Part shown: one piece after another, positions 9,501-27,300 of the stretch
Numbering within the stretch: the first letter of the stretch is position 1
How the letters are laid out: every line of letters starts with the position of its first letter
Assembly (NCBI RefSeq): GCF_004027225.2
Contig: NW_022651105.1
Location: forward strand, 301,962-365,961
Length of the DNA: 64,000 nt
Direction of reading: 5' to 3'
Origin: Strigops habroptila
Taxonomy: Eukaryota; Chordata; Aves; Psittaciformes; Psittacidae
Notes under the pieces: generated by a model
Told to the model about the DNA's origin: nothing
Seen by the model: the letters and a program-made list of their open reading frames with translations, nothing else
The model's database searches: none
Translations under genes and position numbers: made by a program

Positions 9501-12500
9501 GATGGGATGAGTTGGGATGGAGGGAGCCCCCCGCAGCAGGTGGGAAGGGGCAGGATTCCAGGTTGAGTTGGGATGGGATGGGTTGGGATGGGATGAGTTG
9601 GGATGGGCTGGGCTGGGCTGGGTTGGGATGGGTTGGGATGAGTTGGGATGAGTTGGGATGGGCTGGGATGGATCGGGGTTGGTTGGGATGGGCTGGGATG
9701 GAGCTCTGTGCTCCTGCAGCTTCAGCAACCTGGGCATCCAGTGCGTGAAGAAGAAGGAGATCGAGGCGGCCATCGAGAGGAAGCTGCAGTTGGGCATCGA
9801 CCCCTTCAAAGGTAGCTCCGTGCAGCTGCGGCCGCGTCCCGGCGGCGGGAACGGCCCCGGCCCCGCGGGGCCACCAACCCCCCTGTGTCCCCCCCGCAGC
9901 CGGAGCGCTCCGGAACCACCAGGAGGTGGACATGAACGTGGTGCGGATCTGCTTCCAGGCTTCCTACCGGGATGCGGCGGGACACACGCGGCACCTCGGG
10001 CCCGTGCTCTCCGAGCCCATCTTCGACAAGAGTACGTGCGGGGGTCGTCCCGGTGGCATTCCATAGGGATGGGGGGTGATGGTCCCGGTGGCATTCCATG
10101 GGGATGGGGGGGGGATGGTCCCCATGGGAATGATCCCGGTGGCATTCCATAGGGATGGGGGGGGAACAGTCCTGATGGGGACATTCCCGATGGTATTCCA
10201 TGGGGATGGGGGGGGATGGTCCCGATGGGAATGATTCTGATGGCATTCCATGAGGATGGGGGGGGAATGGTCCCGGTGGGAATGATCCCGATGGCATTCC
10301 ATGGGGATGGGGGGGGATGGTCCCGGTTTCATTCCATGGGGATGGGGGGAAAGGGATGGTCCCGATGGGAACATTCCTGATGCCATTCCATGAGGATGGG
10401 TTGGGAAGGGATGATCCTGATGGGAACATTCCCAATCCCATTCCATGGGAATGGGGGGGAAGGGATGGTCCCAATGGGAATGATCCCGGTGGCATTCCAT
10501 AGGGATGGGGGGAGGGATGGTCCCGATGGGCCCGTTCCCGATCCCATTCCATGGGGATGGGTTGGGAAGGGATGATCCCGATGGGCCCGTTCCCGATCCC
10601 ATTCCATGGGGATGGGGGGAAGGGATGATCCCGATGGGAATGTTCCCGATCCCATTCCATGGGGGTGGGTTGGGAAGGGATGATCCCGATGGGAATGTTC
10701 CCGATCCCATTCCATGGGGATGGGTTGGGAAGGGATGATCCCGATGGGCCCGTTCCCGATCCCATTCCATGGGGATGGGTTGGGAAGGGATGATCCCGAT
10801 GGGAATGTTCCCGATCCCATTCCGTGCTGATCCCGTAGAATCCACCAACACGTCGGAGCTGCGGATCTGCCGCATGAACAAGGAGAGCGGCCCCTGCACC
10901 GGGGGGGAGGAGCTTTACCTGCTCTGCGACAAGGTCCAGAAAGGTACCGGGACGCACCGGGATGCACTGGGATATACTGGGATGCACTGGGATATACTGG
11001 GATCGCTTTGGGACACACCGGGATGCACTGGGATATACTGGGATCGCTTCGGGACACACTGGGATACACCGGGATACAGTGGGATACACTGGGGTACACC
11101 AGGATCACTTCAGGACACACTGGGATACAGTGGGATCACTTTGGGACACACCAGGATACACTGGAATACACCAGGATCACTTCGGGACACACTGGGATAC
11201 AGTGGGATCACTTTGGGACACAGCAGGATACACTGGGATACACCAGGATCACTTCGGGACACACTGGGATACAGTGGGATCACTTCGGGACACACTGGGA
11301 TAAACCGGGATCACTTTGGGACACACTGGGATACAGTGGGATCACTTCGGGACACACTGGGATAAAACGGGATCACTTTGGGACACACTGGGATACAGTG
11401 GGATCACTTCGGGACACACTGGGATAAAACGGGATCACTTTGGGACACACTGGGATACAGTGGGATACACCAGGATCACTTCGGGACACACTGGGATGCA
11501 GTGGGATCACTTTGGGACACACTGGGATAAAACGGGATCACTTTGGGACACACTGGGATACAGTGGGATACACCAGGATCACTTCGGGACACACTGGGAT
11601 ACAGTGGGATCACTTTGGGACACACTGGGATAAAACGGGATCACTTTGGGACACACTGGGATACAGTGGGATACACCAGGATCACTTCGGGACACACTGG
11701 GATACAGTGGGATCACTTTGGGACACACTGGGATAAAACGGGATCACTTTGGGACACACCGGGATACAATGGGATCACTTCGGGATACACTGGGATACAG
11801 TGGCATCACTTTGGGATAGACTGGCATCACTTCGGGATACAGTGGGATATACTGGGATACACTGGGATCACTTTGGGACACACTGGGACACACCGGGATA
11901 CACTGGGACACACCGGGATCACTTTGGGACACACCGGGATACACTGGGATACAGTGGGATACACTGGGGCACACCAGGATCACTTCAGGACACACCGGGA
12001 TACACTGGGATACAGTGGGATCACTTTGGGACACACTGGGATACATTGGCATACACTGGGATATACTGGGATCACTTCGGGACGCACCGGGATACACTGG
12101 GATACACTGGGATCAGTTTGGGACACACTGGGATACACTGGGATACACTGGGATCACTTTGGGACACACCGGGATACACTGGGATATACTGGGATCACTT
12201 TGGGACACACCGGGGTACACTGGGATATACTGGGATCACTTTGGGACACACTGGGATACACTGGGATATACTGGGATCACTTTGGGACACACTGGGATAC
12301 ACTGGGATATACTGGGATCACTTTGGGACACACTGGGATACACTGGGATATACTGGGATCACTTTGGGACACACTGGGATACACTGGGGTACACTGGGAT
12401 ATATTGGGATCACTTCGGGACACACCGGGATACACTGGGATACACCGGGATCACTTTGGGACACACCGGGATACACTGGGATCACTTTGGGAGACACCGG

Positions 12501-15500
12501 GATACACTGGGATCACTTCAGGATACACCGAGATCACTTTGGGACACACTGGGATACACCGGGATACACCAGGAGCACAGTGGGACACACCAGGAGCACA
12601 CTGGGACACACTGGGATACACCAGGAGCGCACTGGGACACACCGGGATCACACCGGGATCACACTGGGACACACCGGGAGCGCACCGGGATATGCTGGGA
12701 TCACACCGGGATCACACTGGGACACACCGGGAGCGCACCGGGAGCTCACTGGGATACACCAGGAGCGCACCGGGATACGCTGGGATCACACTGGGATCAC
12801 ACTGGGACACACCGGGAGCGCACCGGGACACACTGGGACACAGTGGGATCACACTGGGACACACTGGGACGCACTGGGATCACACTGGGACACACTGGGA
12901 CGCACGGGGATCGCACTGGGATCACACAGGGACACACTGGGACACACCGGGATCACACTGGGACACACCGGGATCACACTGGGACACACTGGGATACACC
13001 GGGAATGCCGCCATCCCAAAGGCAGCCGGGGGGGGGCGCCTTGTCCCCTGGGAGGCGGGAATGGGGGTGACCAAGTGGGGGATGCTGAAGGGGATGGGAG
13101 GTGCCGCCTCCCCCTGGCTCTGGAGCACCCATGGGTGCCATTGGGGGCACCCCTGGGGGCTCTGTGGGTGCTATTGGGCTCCATTGGGTGCCATAGGGTC
13201 CCGTTGCTCCCCGTGCAGAGGTCGTCGCGGTGGTGTTCCGCACGGCCACGTGGGAGGTGGATGTGTGGGTGCCATTGGGAGTCTGTGGGTGCTATAGGGT
13301 GCCATTGGGCTCCATTGTGGGTGCTTTAGGGTGCCATTGGGCTCCATTGAGCGTGCTTTAGGGTGCTATTGTGGTCTATTGGGGGTGCTATAGGGTGCCA
13401 TTGGGCTCCATTGGCGGTGCTTTAGGGTGCCATTGGGCTCCATTGAGGGTGCTTTAGGGTGCTATTGTGGTCTATTGGGAGTGCTATAGGGTGCCATTGG
13501 GCTCTATTGGGCTCCATTGGGTGCTGTCACCCCATGCAGAAGACATCACAGTGGTATTTTGCATGGTCATGTAGGAGGTGGATGTGCGGGTGCCATTGGG
13601 TGCCGTTGGGTGCCATTGCCATGCAGAGGACATTGCAGTGGTGTTCCGCACAGCCCCGTGGGAGGCGGCTGTGTGGGTGCTGTAGGGTGCCGTTGGGTGC
13701 TATTGGGTGCCGTTGGGTGCTGTTGAGTGCCGTTGGGTGCCCTTGGGTGCCGTTGCCATGCAGAGGACATCGCGGTGGTGTTCCGCACGGCCACGTGGGA
13801 GGCGGCTGTGTGGGTGCCATTGGGTGCTGTAGGGTCCCATTGGGTGCCATTGGGTGCCGTTGCCATGCAGAGGACATTGTGGTGGTGTTCCGCACGGCCA
13901 CGTGGGAGGCGGCTGTGTGGGTGCCATTGGGTGCTGTAGGGTCCCATTGGGTGCCATTGGGTGCCGTTGCCATGCAGAGGACATCGTGGTGGTGTTCCGC
14001 ACGGCCACGTGGGAGGCGGCTGTGTGGGTGCCATTGGGTGCTGTAGGGTCCCATTGGGTGCCGTTGGGTGCCATTGGGTGCCGTTGGGTGCCATTGGGCG
14101 CTGTGCCCCGCAGAGGACATCGCGGTGGTGTTCCGCACGGCCACGTGGGAGGCGGCTGTGTGGGTGCCATTGGGTGCTGTAGGGTCCCATTGGGTGCCAT
14201 TGGGTGCCGTTGCCATGCAGAGGACATCGTGGTGGTGTTCCGCACGGCCACGTGGGAGGTGGCTGTGTGGGTGCCATTGGGTGCTGTAGGGTCCCATTGG
14301 GTGCCGTTGGGTGCCATTGGGTGCCGTTGGGTGCCATTGGGTGCCGTTGCCATGCAGAGGACATCGCGGTGGTGTTCCGCACGGCCCCGTGGGAGGCGGC
14401 TGTGTGGGTGCCATTGGGTGCTGTAGGGTGCCGTTGGGTGCCATTGGGTGCCGTTGGGTGCCATTGGGTGCCGTTGCCATGCAGAGGACATCGCGGTGGT
14501 GTTCCGCACGGCCCCGTGGGAGGTGGCTGTGTGGGTGCCGTTGGGTGCCATTGGGTGCCGTTGGGTGCCATTGGGTGCCGTTGCCATGCAGAGGACATCG
14601 CGGTGGTGTTCCGCACGGCCCCGTGGGAGGCGGCTGTGTGGGTGCCATTGGGTGCCGTTGGGTGTCATTGGGCGCTGTAGGGTGCCATTGGGTGCCGTTG
14701 GGTGCCATTGGGCGCTGTAGGGTGCCGTTGGGTGCCGTTGGGTGCCATTGGGTGCCGTTGCCATGCAGAGGACATCGCGGTGGTGTTCCGCACGGCCACG
14801 TGGGAGGCGCGCGCGGACTTCTCGCAGGCCGACGTGCACCGGCAGGTCGCCATCGTGCTGCGCACGCCCCCGTACCAGCACCTGGAGCTGCAGCGGCCCG
14901 TGGAGGTGGAGGTGGTGCTGCAGCGCCTCACCGACAGCGAGTGCAGCCAGGCCTTCCCCTTCACGTACCTGCCCCGGCACCCCGGTACGGGGGGGGGGGG
15001 GTTGGGGGTGGGGGGTGATGGGGGTGATGGGGATGTGGGGGTGATGGGGTGATGGGGGTAATGGGGATATGGGGGTGATGGGGGTGATGGGGATATGGGG
15101 GTGATGGGGGTGATGGGGATATGGGGGTGATGGGGATGAATGGGGGTAATGGGGATGTGGGGGTGATGGGGGTGATGGGGATGTGGGGGTGATGGGGGTG
15201 ATGGGGGTGAATGGGGGTAATGGGGATGTGGGGGTGATGGGGGTGATGGGGATGTGGGGGTGATGGGGGTGATGGGGATGTGGGGGTGATGGGGGTGATG
15301 GGGATGTGGGGGTGATGGGGATGTGGGGGTGATGGGGGTGATGGGGACATGGGGGTGATGGGGGTGATGGGGATGTGGGGGTGATGGGGGTGAATGGGGG
15401 TAATGGGGATGTGGGGGTGATGGGGGTGATGGGGGTGAATGGGGGTAATGGGGATGTGGGGGTGATGGGGATGTGGGGGTGATGGGGGTAATGGGGATGT

Positions 15501-18500
15501 GGGGGTGATGGGGGTGATGGGGGTGATGGGGGTGATGGGGATGTGAGGGTGATGGGGGTGAATGGGGGTAATGGGGATATGGGGATGTGGGGGTGATGGG
15601 GAGATGGGGGTGATGGGATGATGGGTATATGGGGGTGATGGGGGTGAATGCGGATATGGGGCTGATGGGGATGTGGGGGTGATGGGGATGTGGGGGTAAT
15701 GGGGGATATGGGGGTGATGGGGATATGGGGGTGATGGGGGAGGTGGGGGTGATGGGGACATGGGGGTAATGGGGGATATAGGGGTAATGGGGATATAGGA
15801 GTAATGGGGATGTGGGGGTGATGGAGGATGTGGGGGTGATGGGGACATGGGGTGATGGGGACGTGAGGGTGATGGGGATGTGGGGTGATGTGGGACATGG
15901 GGGTGATGGGGACATGGAGGTGATGGGAATATGGGGGTGATGGAGACATGGGGGTGATGGGGGATGTGGGGGTGATGGGGACGTGGGGGTGATGGGGATG
16001 TGGGGGTGATGGGGACGTGGGGGTGATGGGGATATGGGGGATATGGGGCTGATGGGGATATGGGGGTCATGGGGATGTGGGGTTATGGGGGTGATGGGGA
16101 CATGGGGGTGATGGGGACGTGGGGGTGATGGGGACGTGGGGGTGTGGGGGTGAATGGGGATATGGGGGTGTGGGGGTGATGGGGACATGGGGGTGATGGG
16201 CATATGGGGGTGATGGGGGATATGGGATGATGGGGATGTGGGGGTGATGGGGATATGGGGGTGATGGGGGATATGGGATGATGGGGATGTGGGGGTGATG
16301 GGGATATGGGGGTGATGGGGATATGGGGGTGATGGGGGATATGGGGTGATGGGGACATGGGAGTGATGAGGATGTGGGGGTGATGGGGGATGTTGGGGCA
16401 AATGAGGGTGATGGGGATATGGGGGTGATGGGGATATGGGGGTGATGGGGACATGGGGGTGATGGGGACGTGGGGGTGATGGGGGTGAATGGGGACATGG
16501 GGGTGATGGGGATGTGGGGGTGTGGGGGTGATGGGGATATGGGAGTGTGGGGGTGATGGGGATATGGGGGTGATGGGGACATGGGGGTGATGGAGGATAT
16601 GGGTGTGATGGGGATATGGGGGTGATGGGGGATGTGGGGGTGACGGGGATGATGGGGATATGAGGGTTAATGGGAGTGATGGGGGATATGGGGGTTGTGG
16701 GGGATATGAGGTTATGGGGGTGATGGGGATGTGGGGGTGATGGGGGACATGGGAGTGATGAGGATGTGGGGTGATGGGGACATGGGGTGATGGCGGATAT
16801 GGGGGTGATGGGACATGGAGGTGATGGGGGATATGGGGGTGATGGGGGACGTGGGGTGATGGGGAGATGGGAGTGATGGGGACGTGGGGTGATGCGGAAT
16901 ATGGGGTGATGGGGGGTATGGGGGATATGGGGGTGATGGGGATATGAGGGTGAGGGGGACATGGGGGTGATGGGGATATGGGGTGATGGGGATATGGGGT
17001 GATGGACCACACAGGATGGGGACAGGTCCATCTCCAAGCACGGAGCCAAATCTCACGGGGTGACGGGGGGGTCCCCTTGCTCACGGCCCCCCCTCCCCAC
17101 AGACGTCTATGGGGTGCAGCAGAAGCGGAAGCGGGGCATGCCCGACGTGCTGGAGGAGCTCTCGGGCTCAGGTGGGTTTGGGGGGGCTCATCCCGCCATT
17201 GGGGACTCCCATGGCCGGGGGGGGGGTCACCCTGTGCCAACTGCCCCCCCCCCCCCCCCCCCATAGATCCATACGGGATCGAAGCCAAGAGGAGGAAGAA
17301 GCCCCCCGGGTACATGGAGCACTTCTCCCCACTGCCTGCGGCCGGTGGGTGCCGGGGAGGGGGTCCGGGGGGGGGGACAGTGTTTGGGGTCCCATTGGCA
17401 CCTATGGGGGGAGTGGGGAGAGCTTGGCCTGACCTCGGGGCTGAAAAGCCCCCCCCCCAGGGGTGGGAGAGGGCCCTGGGGACCCCCAGCCCCCCTTTTA
17501 CCCCCCAAAACCCCGTTTTTCCCCCCCCCAACCTCCCATTTTTACCCCCTTCCCCATTTGACCCCCCCAGAAAACCATTTTGCCCCCCAAATCCCCATTT
17601 CCCCCCCTAAAAGCCTCATTTCCCCCCCCAACCCCATTTTTACCCTTTTCCCGTTTGACCCCCCAAAACCCCCATTTCCCCCCAAACCCCATTCCTCCCC
17701 CTCCAAAACTCCATTTCCCCCCCAAACCCCCCTTTCCCCCAAACCCCATTTCAACCCCCAAACCCCATTCCTCTCCCCCCAAACCCCCATTTCCCCCCCA
17801 AAACCCCCCATTTCTCCCCCCAAACCCCTTCCCCCCCAAACCCCATTTTCCCCCCATTACTTTCCCCCCAAACCCCTATTTCCCCCCAGAAAACCATTTC
17901 TCCCCCCAAACCCCCATTTCTCCCCCCAAACCCCCTTTTCCCCCAAAAAAACCCCCATTTCTCCCCCCCAACCCCCCATTTCCCCCCCAAACCCCCCTTC
18001 CCCCAACCCCCTATTTCCCCCCCAAACCCCCCTTCCCCCAACCCCCTATTTCTCCCCCCAAACCCCCTTTCCCCCCCCAAAACCCCATTTCCCCCAAACC
18101 CCTATTTTCCCCCCAAAAAACCCCCATTTCTCCCCCCAAACCCCCCTTTTCCCCCCCAAACCCCATTTCCCCCCCCAAACCCCATTTCTCTCCCCCCAAA
18201 CTCCTATTTTCCCCCCAAAAAACCCCGTTTCTCCCCCCAAACCCCTATTTTCCCCCAAAAAACCCCTTTTCCCCCCCAAACCCCATTTCTCTCCCCAAAA
18301 CCCATTTTCCCCCCATTTTCCCCCAAACCCCCCTTTCCCCCCCAAACCCCATTTCTCTCCCCCCAAACCCCCATTTCCCCCCAAAAAAACCCCCATTTCT
18401 GCCCCCAAACCCCTACTTCCCCCCCCAAACCCCCCTTTCCCCCCCCAAAACCCCCATTTCCACCCCCAAAACCCCCATTTCTCCCCCCAAACTCCCATTC

Positions 18501-19007
18501 CCCCCCCAAAACCCCCTTTCCCCCCCCACCCCTCTTCTCCCTCAGCCCCCCCTTTTCCCCCCCAAACCTCCCTTCCCCCCAAACCCCCATTTCTCCCCCA
18601 AACCCCTATTTCCCCCCAAAACCCCCATTTCTCCCCCCAAACCCCCCTACCCCCCCTAAAACCCCCATTTACCCCCCCAAAGCCCCCTTCCCCCCAAACC
18701 CCCCTTTCCCCTCCAAAACCCCCATTTCTCCCCCCAAACCCCCCTTCCCCCCCCCCCGTTTCCCCCCCAACCCCCTATTTGACAGCCCCCCTCTGTCCCC
18801 CCCCAGACCCCACCTTGCCGGTGGAGCCGGACCCGCTGGACCCCCTGCCCCAGCTCTACGTCCCCTTCGCCCCCCCGGCGCTGCCCCCCCCGTACCCGCT
18901 GCTGGACCTGCCCGAGCTGCTGTCAGAGCCCTTCGCGCCCCCCCCCCGGGGACACCCCCCCCACCGCCACCCTGGTGGGGACCCACATGTTCCCGGGGCA
19001 CGTCTGA
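3579..19007 (+). CDS. RELB: RELB, NF-kB subunit (12 coding exons)
   Basis: RelB, the Rel-homology transcription factor that pairs with p52 or p50 in the noncanonical NF-kB pathway. Exons: 3579-3594, 4777-4830, 4921-4929, 5202-5590, 6709-6866, 9720-9811, 9900-10031, 10839-10943, 14769-14984, 17103-17171, 17267-17344, 18807-19007. All junctions are GT/AG and in phase. The N-terminus reads into [15 protein letters not shown] (human DELEIIDEYIKENGF). The Rel domain runs from about residue 114 ([11 protein letters not shown]) with the DNA-contact loop [13 protein letters not shown] near 126, through the dimerisation domain to about 390. The nuclear localisation signal KRKRGMPD is in exon 10. The Pro-rich tail is shorter than in human: about 505 residues in all against about 580. 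The exons sum to 3n+1 bases; one surplus C at 18938-18947 explains it, since the alternate frame then ends in [14 protein letters not shown] like mammals. Without that correction the frame runs to a stop inside the poly(A) signal. Confidence 0.96.
3606..3676. repeat. 12-bp tandem repeat at start of RELB intron 1
   Basis: About five perfect units of GCCTGCACCGGG just downstream of the RELB exon 1 donor, inside the CpG island. Confidence 0.9.
3845..4770. repeat. 23-bp minisatellite in RELB intron 1 with kappa-B matches
   Basis: About 40 diverged units built on TATGGGGTGGCATTCCCTG. Three units match the kappa-B consensus: GGGACTTTCC at 4222-4231 and GGGACATTCC at 4540-4549 and 4587-4596. The array ends at the acceptor of RELB exon 2. 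Confidence 0.9.
4921..4929 (+). other. RELB: RELB 9-base microexon (coding exon 3)
   Basis: ATGATTTAG lies between a clean acceptor (CCCTTTGCAG) and a consensus donor (GTGAGT). Joined in phase it supplies the bases for Asp-Asp-Leu-Glu, giving DDLEIIEE, which aligns with DELEII of human RelB. Skipping it would remove three residues without a frameshift. It is too short for standard gene finders. Confidence 0.85.
5740..6600 (+). repeat. Composite repeat A: 23-bp minisatellite plus CR1 fragment, RELB intron 4
   Basis: A unique-looking left flank (5740-5870), then about 20 units of a 23-bp repeat (CCCTATGGGAGCTCCCC and variants, 5870-6330), then a right flank leading into a CR1-like segment. The same order occurs inverted at 29010-30030 in CLASRP and, with a different left flank, at 39900-40680 in PPP1R37. 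Confidence 0.88.
6470..6640 (+). mobile_element. CR1 LINE 3' fragment in RELB intron 4
   Basis: Diagnostic CR1 3' text such as GCTGCTCCATCCCTGGCAGT followed by a GTGTCCCTG-like block. CR1 is the dominant LINE of birds and other reptiles. The fragment is old and lacks any reverse-transcriptase frame. Confidence 0.75.
6970..9700. repeat. Higher-order minisatellite filling RELB intron 5
   Basis: About 2.7 kb mixing decamers TTGGGATGGG with a roughly 50-base block containing GGAGCCACCTCCAGGAGGTG and GGGAAGGGGCAGGATTCC. Blocks recur every 60-75 bases, with a stretch near 8040-8470 reduced mainly to decamers. Open frames up to 773 codons cross it on the minus strand; these are repeat artefacts. 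Confidence 0.93.
10045..10830. repeat. Minisatellite in RELB intron 7
   Basis: About 13 units of 55-62 bases containing CCCATTCCATGGGGATGG and GGGATGATCCCGATGGGAA. It fills intron 7 between exons ending at 10031 and starting at 10839. Confidence 0.92.
10948..13010. repeat. Decamer minisatellite in RELB intron 8
   Basis: About 2 kb built from decamers such as ACTGGGATAC, with longer periodic blocks GGGATCACTTTGGGACACAC. Open frames cross it in several phases but have no similarity to proteins. Confidence 0.93.
13210..14808 (+). repeat. RELB: Tandem array of RELB exon 9 splice acceptors and partial exons
   Basis: Twelve copies of an acceptor (CATGCAG or similar) followed by about 40 bases of exon 9. 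Copies begin at 13219, 13540, 13627, 13764, 13871, 13978, 14114, 14221, 14358, 14485, 14592 and 14769; only the last runs into the full exon. Common spacing is 107 bases, and most others differ by multiples of ten (87, 127, 137, 177) because a decamer, GTGCCATTGG or GTGCCGTTGG, expands inside the unit. Copies 1-3 are more diverged (copy 2 has an in-frame stop in the exon-like part); the rest are nearly identical, so the array is recent or still homogenised. Confidence 0.93.
14985..16998. repeat. GGGGATGTGGGGGTGATG minisatellite in RELB intron 9
   Basis: About 2 kb of 15-18-base G-rich units (GGGGATGTGGGGGTGAT and GGGGATATGGGGGTGAT). The plus strand carries dense GGGG runs, so the RNA and non-template strand could form G-quadruplexes. 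Minus-strand Pro/His/Ser frames up to 794 codons are artefacts. Confidence 0.93.
17480..18790. repeat. C-rich minisatellite in RELB intron 11
   Basis: About 1.3 kb of roughly 20-22-base units, mostly CCCCCCAAACCCCCATTTCT, nearly free of G on the plus strand. The minus strand is G-rich with GGGGTTTGGGGGG-type runs. The array ends at the acceptor of the last RELB exon. Confidence 0.93.
18938..18947 (+). other. RELB: Run of ten C causing an apparent RELB frameshift
   Basis: The tract follows SEPFA in the last exon. With ten C the frame continues to a stop at 19187-19189 inside the poly(A) signal. With nine C it reads [14 protein letters not shown] then TGA at 19005-19007, matching the conserved vertebrate RelB C-terminus (human TASLVGSNMFPNHY). 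The exon length sum of 3n+1 points the same way. Confidence 0.8.
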
Positions 19008-19184
19008 GCCCCCCCCCCCCCCCCCCGGCCCCACACAGGACTCGGGTACCCCCATTCCCCCCCCCAGGAGGTGGGGGGGACCCTGCCCCGGGCTGGCTGG
19101 ACCCCCCCGGGGCGGCCACAGCCCAGCCGCGGTTCGGACCCCCCCAGCTCGAGCTGCTTTGCACTATATTTATGGGGGGGGCGG

Positions 19185-24300: not shown

Positions 24301-27300
24301 ATGGAGAGCAGCCACATTCCCTTCCTGCCTCTCTCTGCCTGGGAGCAAGCTCTGGAGGGAAGCTGAGCCCTTTCCAAAGGGAATTCCAGGCTGGCCATGA
24401 TGTTTAGTGGCCGACTCCATCCCTGCTTGCTGCACATCCCAGAACAAGGGTTTGATTCCTTCCAGCTCCATTATCCTTTAGGAAATGGGAATCTCACGTG
24501 GAGCCACCTCATGGGGATGGGTTTGGATCCATCCCATGTCCTAGAGCGCTAAAAGGTGTTTCTTGTCCTTTAAATTCCCTTTCCAAAGGGAATTCCAGGC
24601 TGGCCATGATGTTTAGTGGCCGACTCCATCCGTGCTTGCTGCACATCCCAGAACAAGGGTTTGATTCCTTCCAGCTCCATTATCCTTTAGGAAATGGGAA
24701 CCTCACGTGGATCCACCTCATGGGGATGGGTTTGGATCCATCCCATGTCCCAGAGCACTAAAAGCTGCTTTTGGTCCTTTAAATTCCCTTTCCAAAGGGA
24801 ATTCCAGGCTGGCCATGGTGTTTAGTGGCTGATTCCATCCCTGCTTGCTGCACATCCCAGCACAAGGGTTTGATTCCTTCCAGGCTCATTCTCCTTTGGG
24901 AAACAGGAATCTCCCATGGAGCCACCTCATGGGGATGGGTTTGGATCCATCCCATGTTCCCAGACCACTAAAAGCTGCTTCTGGTCCTTTAAATTCCCTT
25001 TCCAAAGGGAATTCCAGGCTGGCCATGATGTTTAGTGGCCGACTCCATCCCTGCTTGCTGCACATCCCAGCACAAGGGTTTGATTCCTTCCAGCTCCATT
25101 ATCCTTTAGGAAACGGGAATCTCCCATGGAGCCATCTCATGGGGATGGGTTTGGATCCATCCCACGTCCCAGAGCACTAAAAGCTGCTTTTGGTCCTTTA
25201 AATTCCCTTTCCAAAGGGAATTCCAGGCTGGCCATGGTGTTTAGTGGCTGACTCCATCCCTGCTTGCTGCACATCCCAGCACAAGGGTTTGATTCCTTCC
25301 AGCTCCATTATCCTTTAGGAAAGGGGAATCTCCCATGGATCCACCTCATGGGGATGGGTTTGGATCCATCCCACGTCCCAGAGCACTAAAAGCTGCTTTT
25401 GGTCCTTTAAATTCCCTTTCCAAAGGGAATTCCAGGCTGGCCATGGTGTTTAGTGGCTGACTCCATCCCTGCTTGCTGCACATCCCAGCATGAGGGTTTG
25501 ATTCCTTCCAGGCTCATTCTCCTTTGGGAAGCAGGAATTTTACATGGAGCCACCTCAGAGGGGATGGATTTGGATCCATCCCGTGTTCCCAGAGCACCAA
25601 AAGCTCCTTTTGATCCATTGCAGTTCCCCGGAGCAGGAATGTGACGAGAGGAAATGCAACTACGAGCGGTACCGCGGCCTCGTGCAGAACGACTTCGCTG
25701 GCAGTGAGTGTCCCTGGGGCTGGGGCTGGGGCTTGGGGACACCCCAAACCCTGCCGGGGGGTGCAAGGGGGGGGACAGGCCCGTGTCCCCCCCCCCATTG
25801 ATCCCTCTGGTGGCTCCAGTCTCGGAGGAGCAGTGTCTCTACCAGATCTACATCGATGAGCTCTACGGGGGGCTCCAGAAGCCCAACGAGGATGAGAAGA
25901 AGAAGTGAGTGTCCCAAGGAAGGGGGGTGGCGGCGTGGCCCTTTGGGGGTGCTCCATGGAGCAGGGTGGGATCGGGAGCATCCTCCCTGAGCAGGGAGGC
26001 AGAGGAAGGGCCCTTCCTGCTCCTTAATAAGGATAAGGAAGGGGAATAGGGATTGAGTATCCATGTGCAGGCTCGCCGAGAAGAAAGCCTCCATTGGCTA
26101 CACGTATGAGGACAGCACCGTGGCCGAGCTGGACAACAACGTGGAGAAGAGAGGGGAGGAGGAGGACTCGGAGGAGGACAGCAACACGGATGAAGATGAA
26201 GTCATCCCTGACATTGGTACTGAGCCCCCCCCGCCGTGCTCCTTGGGGTGCTGAGCCCCTGGTGCTGGCGCTGCCCTCAGCCGCTTCCCCTCATGCTCCC
26301 AGACGTGGAAGTGGACGTGGATGAGCTCAACCAGGAGCAAGTGGCCGACCTCAACAAGCAGGCGACCACCTACGGCATGGCCGAGGGGGACTTCGTCAGG
26401 TAGGGCTTGGATGGAGCCCCCCCCCCCCCCGCTGTGTTCCAGGGGGGAATCCCTATGGATGTGCCCGGCTGTGGGATGGGGGGACCCTGAACCCCTCTTT
26501 CCCTATCTGGGTGCTGGGCTCTTACTGAGGGTTTCTCCCAAGGATGCTGCGGAAGGACAAGGAGGAGGCTGAAGCGATTAAGAACGCCAAGGCTCTGGAG
26601 GAGGAGAAGGCCATGTACTCGGTAGGGGATAGAGCCCGGACAATTCCCTGCTCCCGGGAGCTGCTTCCCCATCGCTGGAGCCATCCCTGAGCTCCAGCTG
26701 CTCCTCCCAGGGCCGACGCTCCCGGCGCCAGAGGAGGGAATTCAGGGAGAAACGCTTGAAAGGGAGGAAGATCAGTCCCCCCAGGTGGGTCCCAGAGCTG
26801 GGATAGAGCATCCAGCCCTGCTCCATCCCATTCCCGGAGCTGGGATACAGCATCCAGCCCTGCTCCATCCCATTCCCGGAGCTGGGATTCAGCATCCAGC
26901 CCTGCTCCATCCCATTCCCGGAGCTGGGATACAGCATCCAGCCCTGCTCCATCCCATTCCCGGAGCTGGGATAGAGCATCCAGCCCTTCTCCATCCCATT
27001 CCCGGAGCTGGGATACAGCATCCAGCCCTGCTCCATCCCATTCCCGGAGCTGGGATTCAGCATCCAGCCCTGCTCCATCCCGTTCCCAGAGCTGGGATAG
27101 AGCATCCGGCCCTTCTCCATCCCATTCCCGGAGCTGGGATTCAGCATCCAGCCCTGCTCCATCCCATTCCCGGAGCTGGGATAGAGCATCCAGCCCTGCT
27201 CCATCCCATTCCCAGCCCCCGGAGCTGGGATACAGCATCCAGCCCTGCTCCATCCCATTCCCAGAGCTTGGATACAGCATCCAGCCCTTCTCCATCCCAT

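Follow-up and report, generated by a model that had tools for sequence, protein, structure and literature searches.

A tandem array of splice acceptors and exon edges in RELB of Strigops habroptila, a probable case of exon stuttering

The RELB locus

The window analysed here, a stretch of 64,000 nucleotides of the Strigops habroptila genome, carries RELB on the plus strand with ten exons modelled from 3579 to about 19186. To judge from their peptides, the neighbouring genes are presumably CLASRP and PPP1R37; the name CLASRP is backed by the Pfam family DRY_EERY ('Alternative splicing regulator'). RELB exon 7 matches the dimerisation domain RHD_dimer (Pfam-ID: PF16179, E 1.3e-22), and among solved structures RelB chains are its best relatives (102.6–106.8 bits, the best p65 chain reaching 73.5). 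In the readable gene model the intron and exon of interest are intron 6 and exon 7 of 10, and the numbering as intron 8 and exon 9 in the first-pass annotation could not be confirmed. Up to about 18937 the last RELB exon (18807–19010) follows one frame, and its expected end and stop are found in another; the switch lies at a run of ten C (near 18937–18950), for which either an error of the consensus or a real frameshift may be responsible.

Tandem repeats mask 57 % of the window. Seven of the nine RELB introns are masked to 41–97 %, and the two shortest, 9812–9899 (88 bases) and 17172–17266 (95 bases), are free of repeats. Most other long introns in the window are likewise filled with repeat arrays, which hold no copied exons. 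One array of about six repeats of a 209-base unit with 93 % identity (24368–25616) ends immediately ahead of a CLASRP exon near 25620, which is itself uncopied. Quadruplex motifs cover 85 % of intron 7 (14985–17102) on the sense strand and 79 % of intron 9 (17345–18806) on the antisense strand. Gene content and repeat style suggest that the locus lies on a bird dot-type chromosome. The background on dot chromosomes is supported by the complete chicken genome paper, which does not name RELB in the part covered here (PMC9974502).

Table 1 Features of the array in RELB intron 6 and of the adjoining exons
Feature	Position	Strand	Remarks
RELB exon 6	10839–10943	+	N-terminal part of RHD_dimer; donor AAG/GTACCG, contested by the acceptors
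RELB intron 6	10944–14768	+	3825 bases, of which 92 % are masked as tandem repeat
Intron end, probably where the founding unit starts	13158–13218	+	13158–13191 matches the post-breakpoint consensus
Copy 1, exon part (decoy)	13219–13259	+	Top acceptor score of the array, 8.1 bits
Intronic-only 32-base sub-array between copies 1 and 2	13287–13511	+	
Copy 2, exon part (decoy)	13540–13580	+	11 changes in 41 bases
Copy 3, exon part (decoy)	13627–13667	+	BLASTN match
Copy 4, exon part (decoy)	13764–13804	+	BLASTN match; 41 bases as in the true exon
Copy 5, exon part (decoy)	13871–13911	+	BLASTN match
Copy 6, exon part (decoy)	13978–14018	+	BLASTN match
Copy 7, exon part (decoy)	14114–14154	+	41 bases as in the true exon; different acceptor, 7.1 bits
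Copy 8, exon part (decoy)	14221–14261	+	BLASTN match
Copy 9, exon part (decoy)	14358–14398	+	BLASTN match
Copy 10, exon part (decoy)	14485–14525	+	BLASTN match
Copy 11, exon part (decoy closest to the true exon)	14592–14632	+	BLASTN match
True RELB exon 7	14769–14984	+	Rel homology region, dimerisation part; first 41 bases are copy 12

Structure of the array

The twelve copies of an acceptor joined to the beginning of an exon that had been described from the first reading were all recovered between 13216 and 14809. Eleven of them are decoys and the twelfth is the true exon (Table 1); from the first exon base of copy 1 the array spans 1,591 bases (13219–14809). The clean junction that had been claimed for most decoys is borne out as well, since CAG precedes the exon part in 12/12 copies and the exact CAGAGGACAT is found in ten, that is nine decoys and the true exon. 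Only copy 1 (CAGAGGTCGT) and copy 2 (CAGAAGACAT) deviate. The exon part common to the copies comprises 41 bases (39–41 by BLASTN).

A BLASTN search of exon 7 against the exon-masked window gave ten matches with 57.2–75.2 bits, the cut-off being 41.0 bits, the top score in 20 dinucleotide shuffles; thus 10 of the 11 decoys exceed the shuffle maximum and copy 2 falls below the cut-off. Among 25 queries, consisting of exact RELB exons, 14 coding cores of CLASRP and one of PPP1R37 (the cores not being exact exons), RELB exon 7 is the only one with copies in the window, RELB exon 1 (16 bases) being too short for the cut-off; a 16th peptide that no single frame contained was left out of the queries. 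A search for relatives in viral_contigs gave 0 matches.

The spacings between successive copies are 321, 87, 137, 107, 107, 136, 107, 137, 127, 107 and 177 bases. Nine of the eleven equal 7 modulo 10, which agrees with the ten-base stepping of the unit noted earlier and is what a spacer built from a 10-base intronic repeat would produce. Taken alone, the 10-base motif of the acceptor junction, with one mismatch allowed, occurs 15 times, only mildly above chance (shuffles: mean 7.09, largest 16). The sense strand of the array is rich in G: G3-N1-7 quadruplex motifs cover 613 of 1550 bases there and none on the other strand, while 200 mononucleotide shuffles yielded 46 bases on average and 143 at the most.

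From copy 1 to copy 12 the exon parts differ from the true exon at 3, 11, 4, 0, 2, 1, 0, 2, 1, 2, 1 and 0 bases. Thus, the upstream copies look older, the most changed ones lying farthest from the exon, even if the trend is not unbroken, with the most changes in copy 2 and the fewest in copies 4 and 7. The changes in copy 2 are unlike those of its neighbours: each of the 11 replaces a G or C by an A or T, and six are located at CpG. Counted by codon position, the distinct changes number 4 at the first, 7 at the second and 6 at the third, which gives no sign of coding constraint on the decoys.

Such a pattern also bears on the possibility that an assembler expanded one or a few copies. The frame change at the C-run of the last RELB exon indicates that the assembly may not be base-perfect here. 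However, an artefact would give identical units, whereas the copies differ in substitutions and spacing and diverge outward, and for chicken PHF8 the main text of Hron et al. (2026; PMC12954441) reports that raw nanopore reads confirmed a structure of the same kind. An artificial array is therefore considered very improbable.

Origin and growth of the array

The decoys share a 36-base consensus after the point where they leave the exon sequence. It begins with GGCT(C/G)TGTGGGTGC, a start that is specific within the scan of the upstream intron, and its best alignment there is to 13158–13191 with a score of 33.0, compared to at most 23.0 in 200 shuffles of 13005–13218. The sequence of copy 1 itself aligns at 13155 (score 29.0). 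Both the consensus and 13158–13191 hold the 10-base repeat, so that the match is in part one between common repeats. The start of the repeated unit, previously placed at 13210, has to be moved upstream to near 13158.

Because the consensus matches 13158–13191, a single tandem duplication that spanned the border between intron and exon is the probable source of the array. In the simplest history this local duplication, reaching from about 13158 to exon base 41, would have joined the first 41 bases of exon 7 to intron sequence approximately 60 bases upstream of the acceptor. A unit of roughly 100 bases would then have multiplied, its spacer growing or shrinking by the 10-base intronic repeat (TGGGTGCCAT/GT). 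At the downstream side the true exon would have been left intact, and the copies upstream of it are incomplete exon edges. The order of events given here is a reconstruction. Most decoys share the true acceptor GCCGTTGCCATGCAG (6.2 bits), and copy 1 has a more pyrimidine-rich one, which may be the older form. Quadruplexes have been named as one possible cause of exon stuttering, the repetition of exon edges seen in chicken (Hron et al. 2026; PMC12954441, main text).

Splice sites of the copies

Splice sites were scored with a Shapiro-Senapathy-type matrix. The acceptors of the array reach 5.5–8.1 bits and the other eight RELB acceptors 4.4–10.4 bits; compared with the true site, eight of the eleven decoys are equal and two are higher. 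Since these scores overlap, the local sequence carries no mark of the true acceptor, and the last one is taken as the site in use on the grounds of reading frame and homology. Copies 9–11 are even identical to the true site from 41 bases upstream through 29 bases downstream. The branch-point motif TNAY is absent from bases −60 to −16 in 11 of the 12 copies and present at the edge of that interval in copy 3; as a discriminator it was rejected, four of the eight other RELB acceptors also lacking it. The predicted RNA fold at the true acceptor is unremarkable (z −1.32; 19 of 200 shuffles fold as well).

The donor side is different. The first-pass annotation had proposed a GTAGGG near the decoys as a donor that would complete poison exons of 65 bases. 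This distance from the acceptor holds for copies 4–9 (6/11) and not for the rest: in copy 3 the offset is 55, in copy 11 it is 85 and 125, and copies 1, 2 and 10 have no such site. Moreover, GCT/GTAGGG scores 2.0 bits, the 70.7th percentile of GT sites on the plus strand, and all nine RELB donors lie above it (3.7–10.2 bits). The best cassette donors reach 4.3–4.9 bits in seven of the eleven decoys and about 2.2–2.3 bits in the other four. Better ones are located inside the exon part, CAC/GTGGGA at 31 bases and GAG/GTGG at 38 bases (4.3–4.7 bits), or CAT/GTAGGA in copy 2 (4.9 bits), and would give very short exons.

Reading frames if decoys were used

All 22 cassette exons that were followed shift the frame. 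With the 65-base version the frame would stay open until 198 bases beyond the last exon junction in six of six cases, so that none brings a stop upstream of that junction; with its weak donor, too, the proposed poison exon is not supported by the sequence. Only one of the 22, the 38-base exon of copy 2, has its first stop before the last junction; this count is independent of the frame change in the last exon, which makes the stops there unsure (nine with the first stop 198 bases after the junction, twelve with none up to 19186). Poison exons as the main reading were rejected on donor scores and frames.

If the decoys instead served as alternative acceptors with the true donor, a stop would be met inside the retained array in 11/11 cases, including the three that are otherwise in frame (copies 4, 9 and 11). 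A protein isoform with retained array was rejected on the same count.

Interpretation

Taken together, the sequence makes it very probable that the array is a case of exon stuttering on what is presumably a dot-type chromosome of a bird, a bystander tolerated by exon definition. The donor at 14984 would be paired with the nearest acceptor, giving an exon of 216 bases, and not with a decoy, which would require 393 bases or more. Splicing would then mostly ignore the decoys, and their occasional use would yield unproductive RNA. That exon definition is the reason for the tolerance is likely. In transcriptome-wide data long introns go along with a preference for the sites closest across the exon, and where both introns are long, upstream acceptors are preferred to a significantly smaller extent, as far as the consulted part of that study goes (PMC9225289). 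According to the same part, upstream acceptors are preferred overall, and under exon definition this preference is weakened and not reversed (PMC9225289). Some use of the decoys is therefore plausible.

How much use is the point on which a second reading differs. Decoys might sometimes be spliced and the RNA removed by decay, at small cost and without regulation. It draws on the acceptor scores and on the stops inside the array, is compatible with a tolerated bystander and departs from it in amount only; we regard it as possible, though rather less probable than not.

A regulatory role would go much further. The number of decoys would set the productive splicing of RELB, so that the length of the array tunes RELB protein and the output of noncanonical NF-kB. 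In its favour are the 10 of 11 decoy acceptors at least equal in score to the true one, the three copies indistinguishable from it over 70 bases and the stop that would follow every decoy used as alternative acceptor; moreover, stuttering introns differ in length among chickens, 183 of 192 being variable in the main text of Hron et al. (2026; PMC12954441). Against it stand the weak cassette donors (at best 4.9 bits), the single cassette exon with a stop before the last junction and the lack of coding constraint on the decoys. Furthermore, most other long introns are filled with arrays without copied exons, and hence the RELB array needs no function. Regulation by decoy number is thus judged highly unlikely. 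By analogy with the chicken screen the array is likely polymorphic in length. That it forms a heritable, length-variable expression allele of RELB, with each decoy as a competitor of equal strength, seems very doubtful from the sequence; if it were true, an immune gene, that of a noncanonical NF-kB subunit, would have expression alleles defined by the length of a repeat.

The locus offers a legible example of exon stuttering in the gene of an immune transcription factor, with a probable founding breakpoint that can still be read. What mainly sets its twelve acceptors apart, several of them sharing 70 identical bases, is the presence or absence of an exon body and a donor behind them. The array thereby provides a natural test case for exon definition and for the ways in which genes on chromosomes of this type survive the duplication of splice sites.

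Comparison with known systems

Intronic minisatellites (VNTRs) are likewise built of head-to-tail units and vary in small length steps. Unlike them, the RELB unit holds an acceptor and exon bases, which most other arrays of the window lack. Poison exons, of which conservation is the usual hallmark, resemble the array in providing extra intronic splice sites able to divert splicing, but the RELB decoys have no good donor and their 65-base version no stop before the last junction.

The closest relative is exon stuttering, or sequence stuttering, described for chicken dot chromosomes (Hron et al. 2026, Genome Biol Evol; PMC12954441). According to its main text, exon edges with their donor or acceptor are repeated through the intron, from which alternatively spliced transcripts can potentially arise, and 236 introns of 115 chicken genes are concerned, 190 of these introns on dot chromosomes (PMC12954441). 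RELB is absent from that main text, and the supplementary list of the 115 genes may include it. The term was found in this paper only; literature on RELB together with birds or microchromosomes, judged by title, treats other subjects, and for repeats over intron-exon borders the listed matches held nothing closer. In chicken the source lies within 1 base of the exon border in over 90 % of cases, the exon part measures 20–187 bases (median 36) and is present in 1–44 copies, and the arrays span 112–23,555 bases (PMC12954441, main text). The copied part, copy number and span in RELB all fall within these published ranges, its copies start at exon base 1 behind an invariant CAG, and all but one of the decoys surpass the shuffled controls. 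Both systems repeat in tandem an exon edge with its splice site in the adjacent intron, which is filled with local repeats (PMC12954441, main text). By its sequence the RELB array is a member of this already published phenomenon, including the copying of splice sites.
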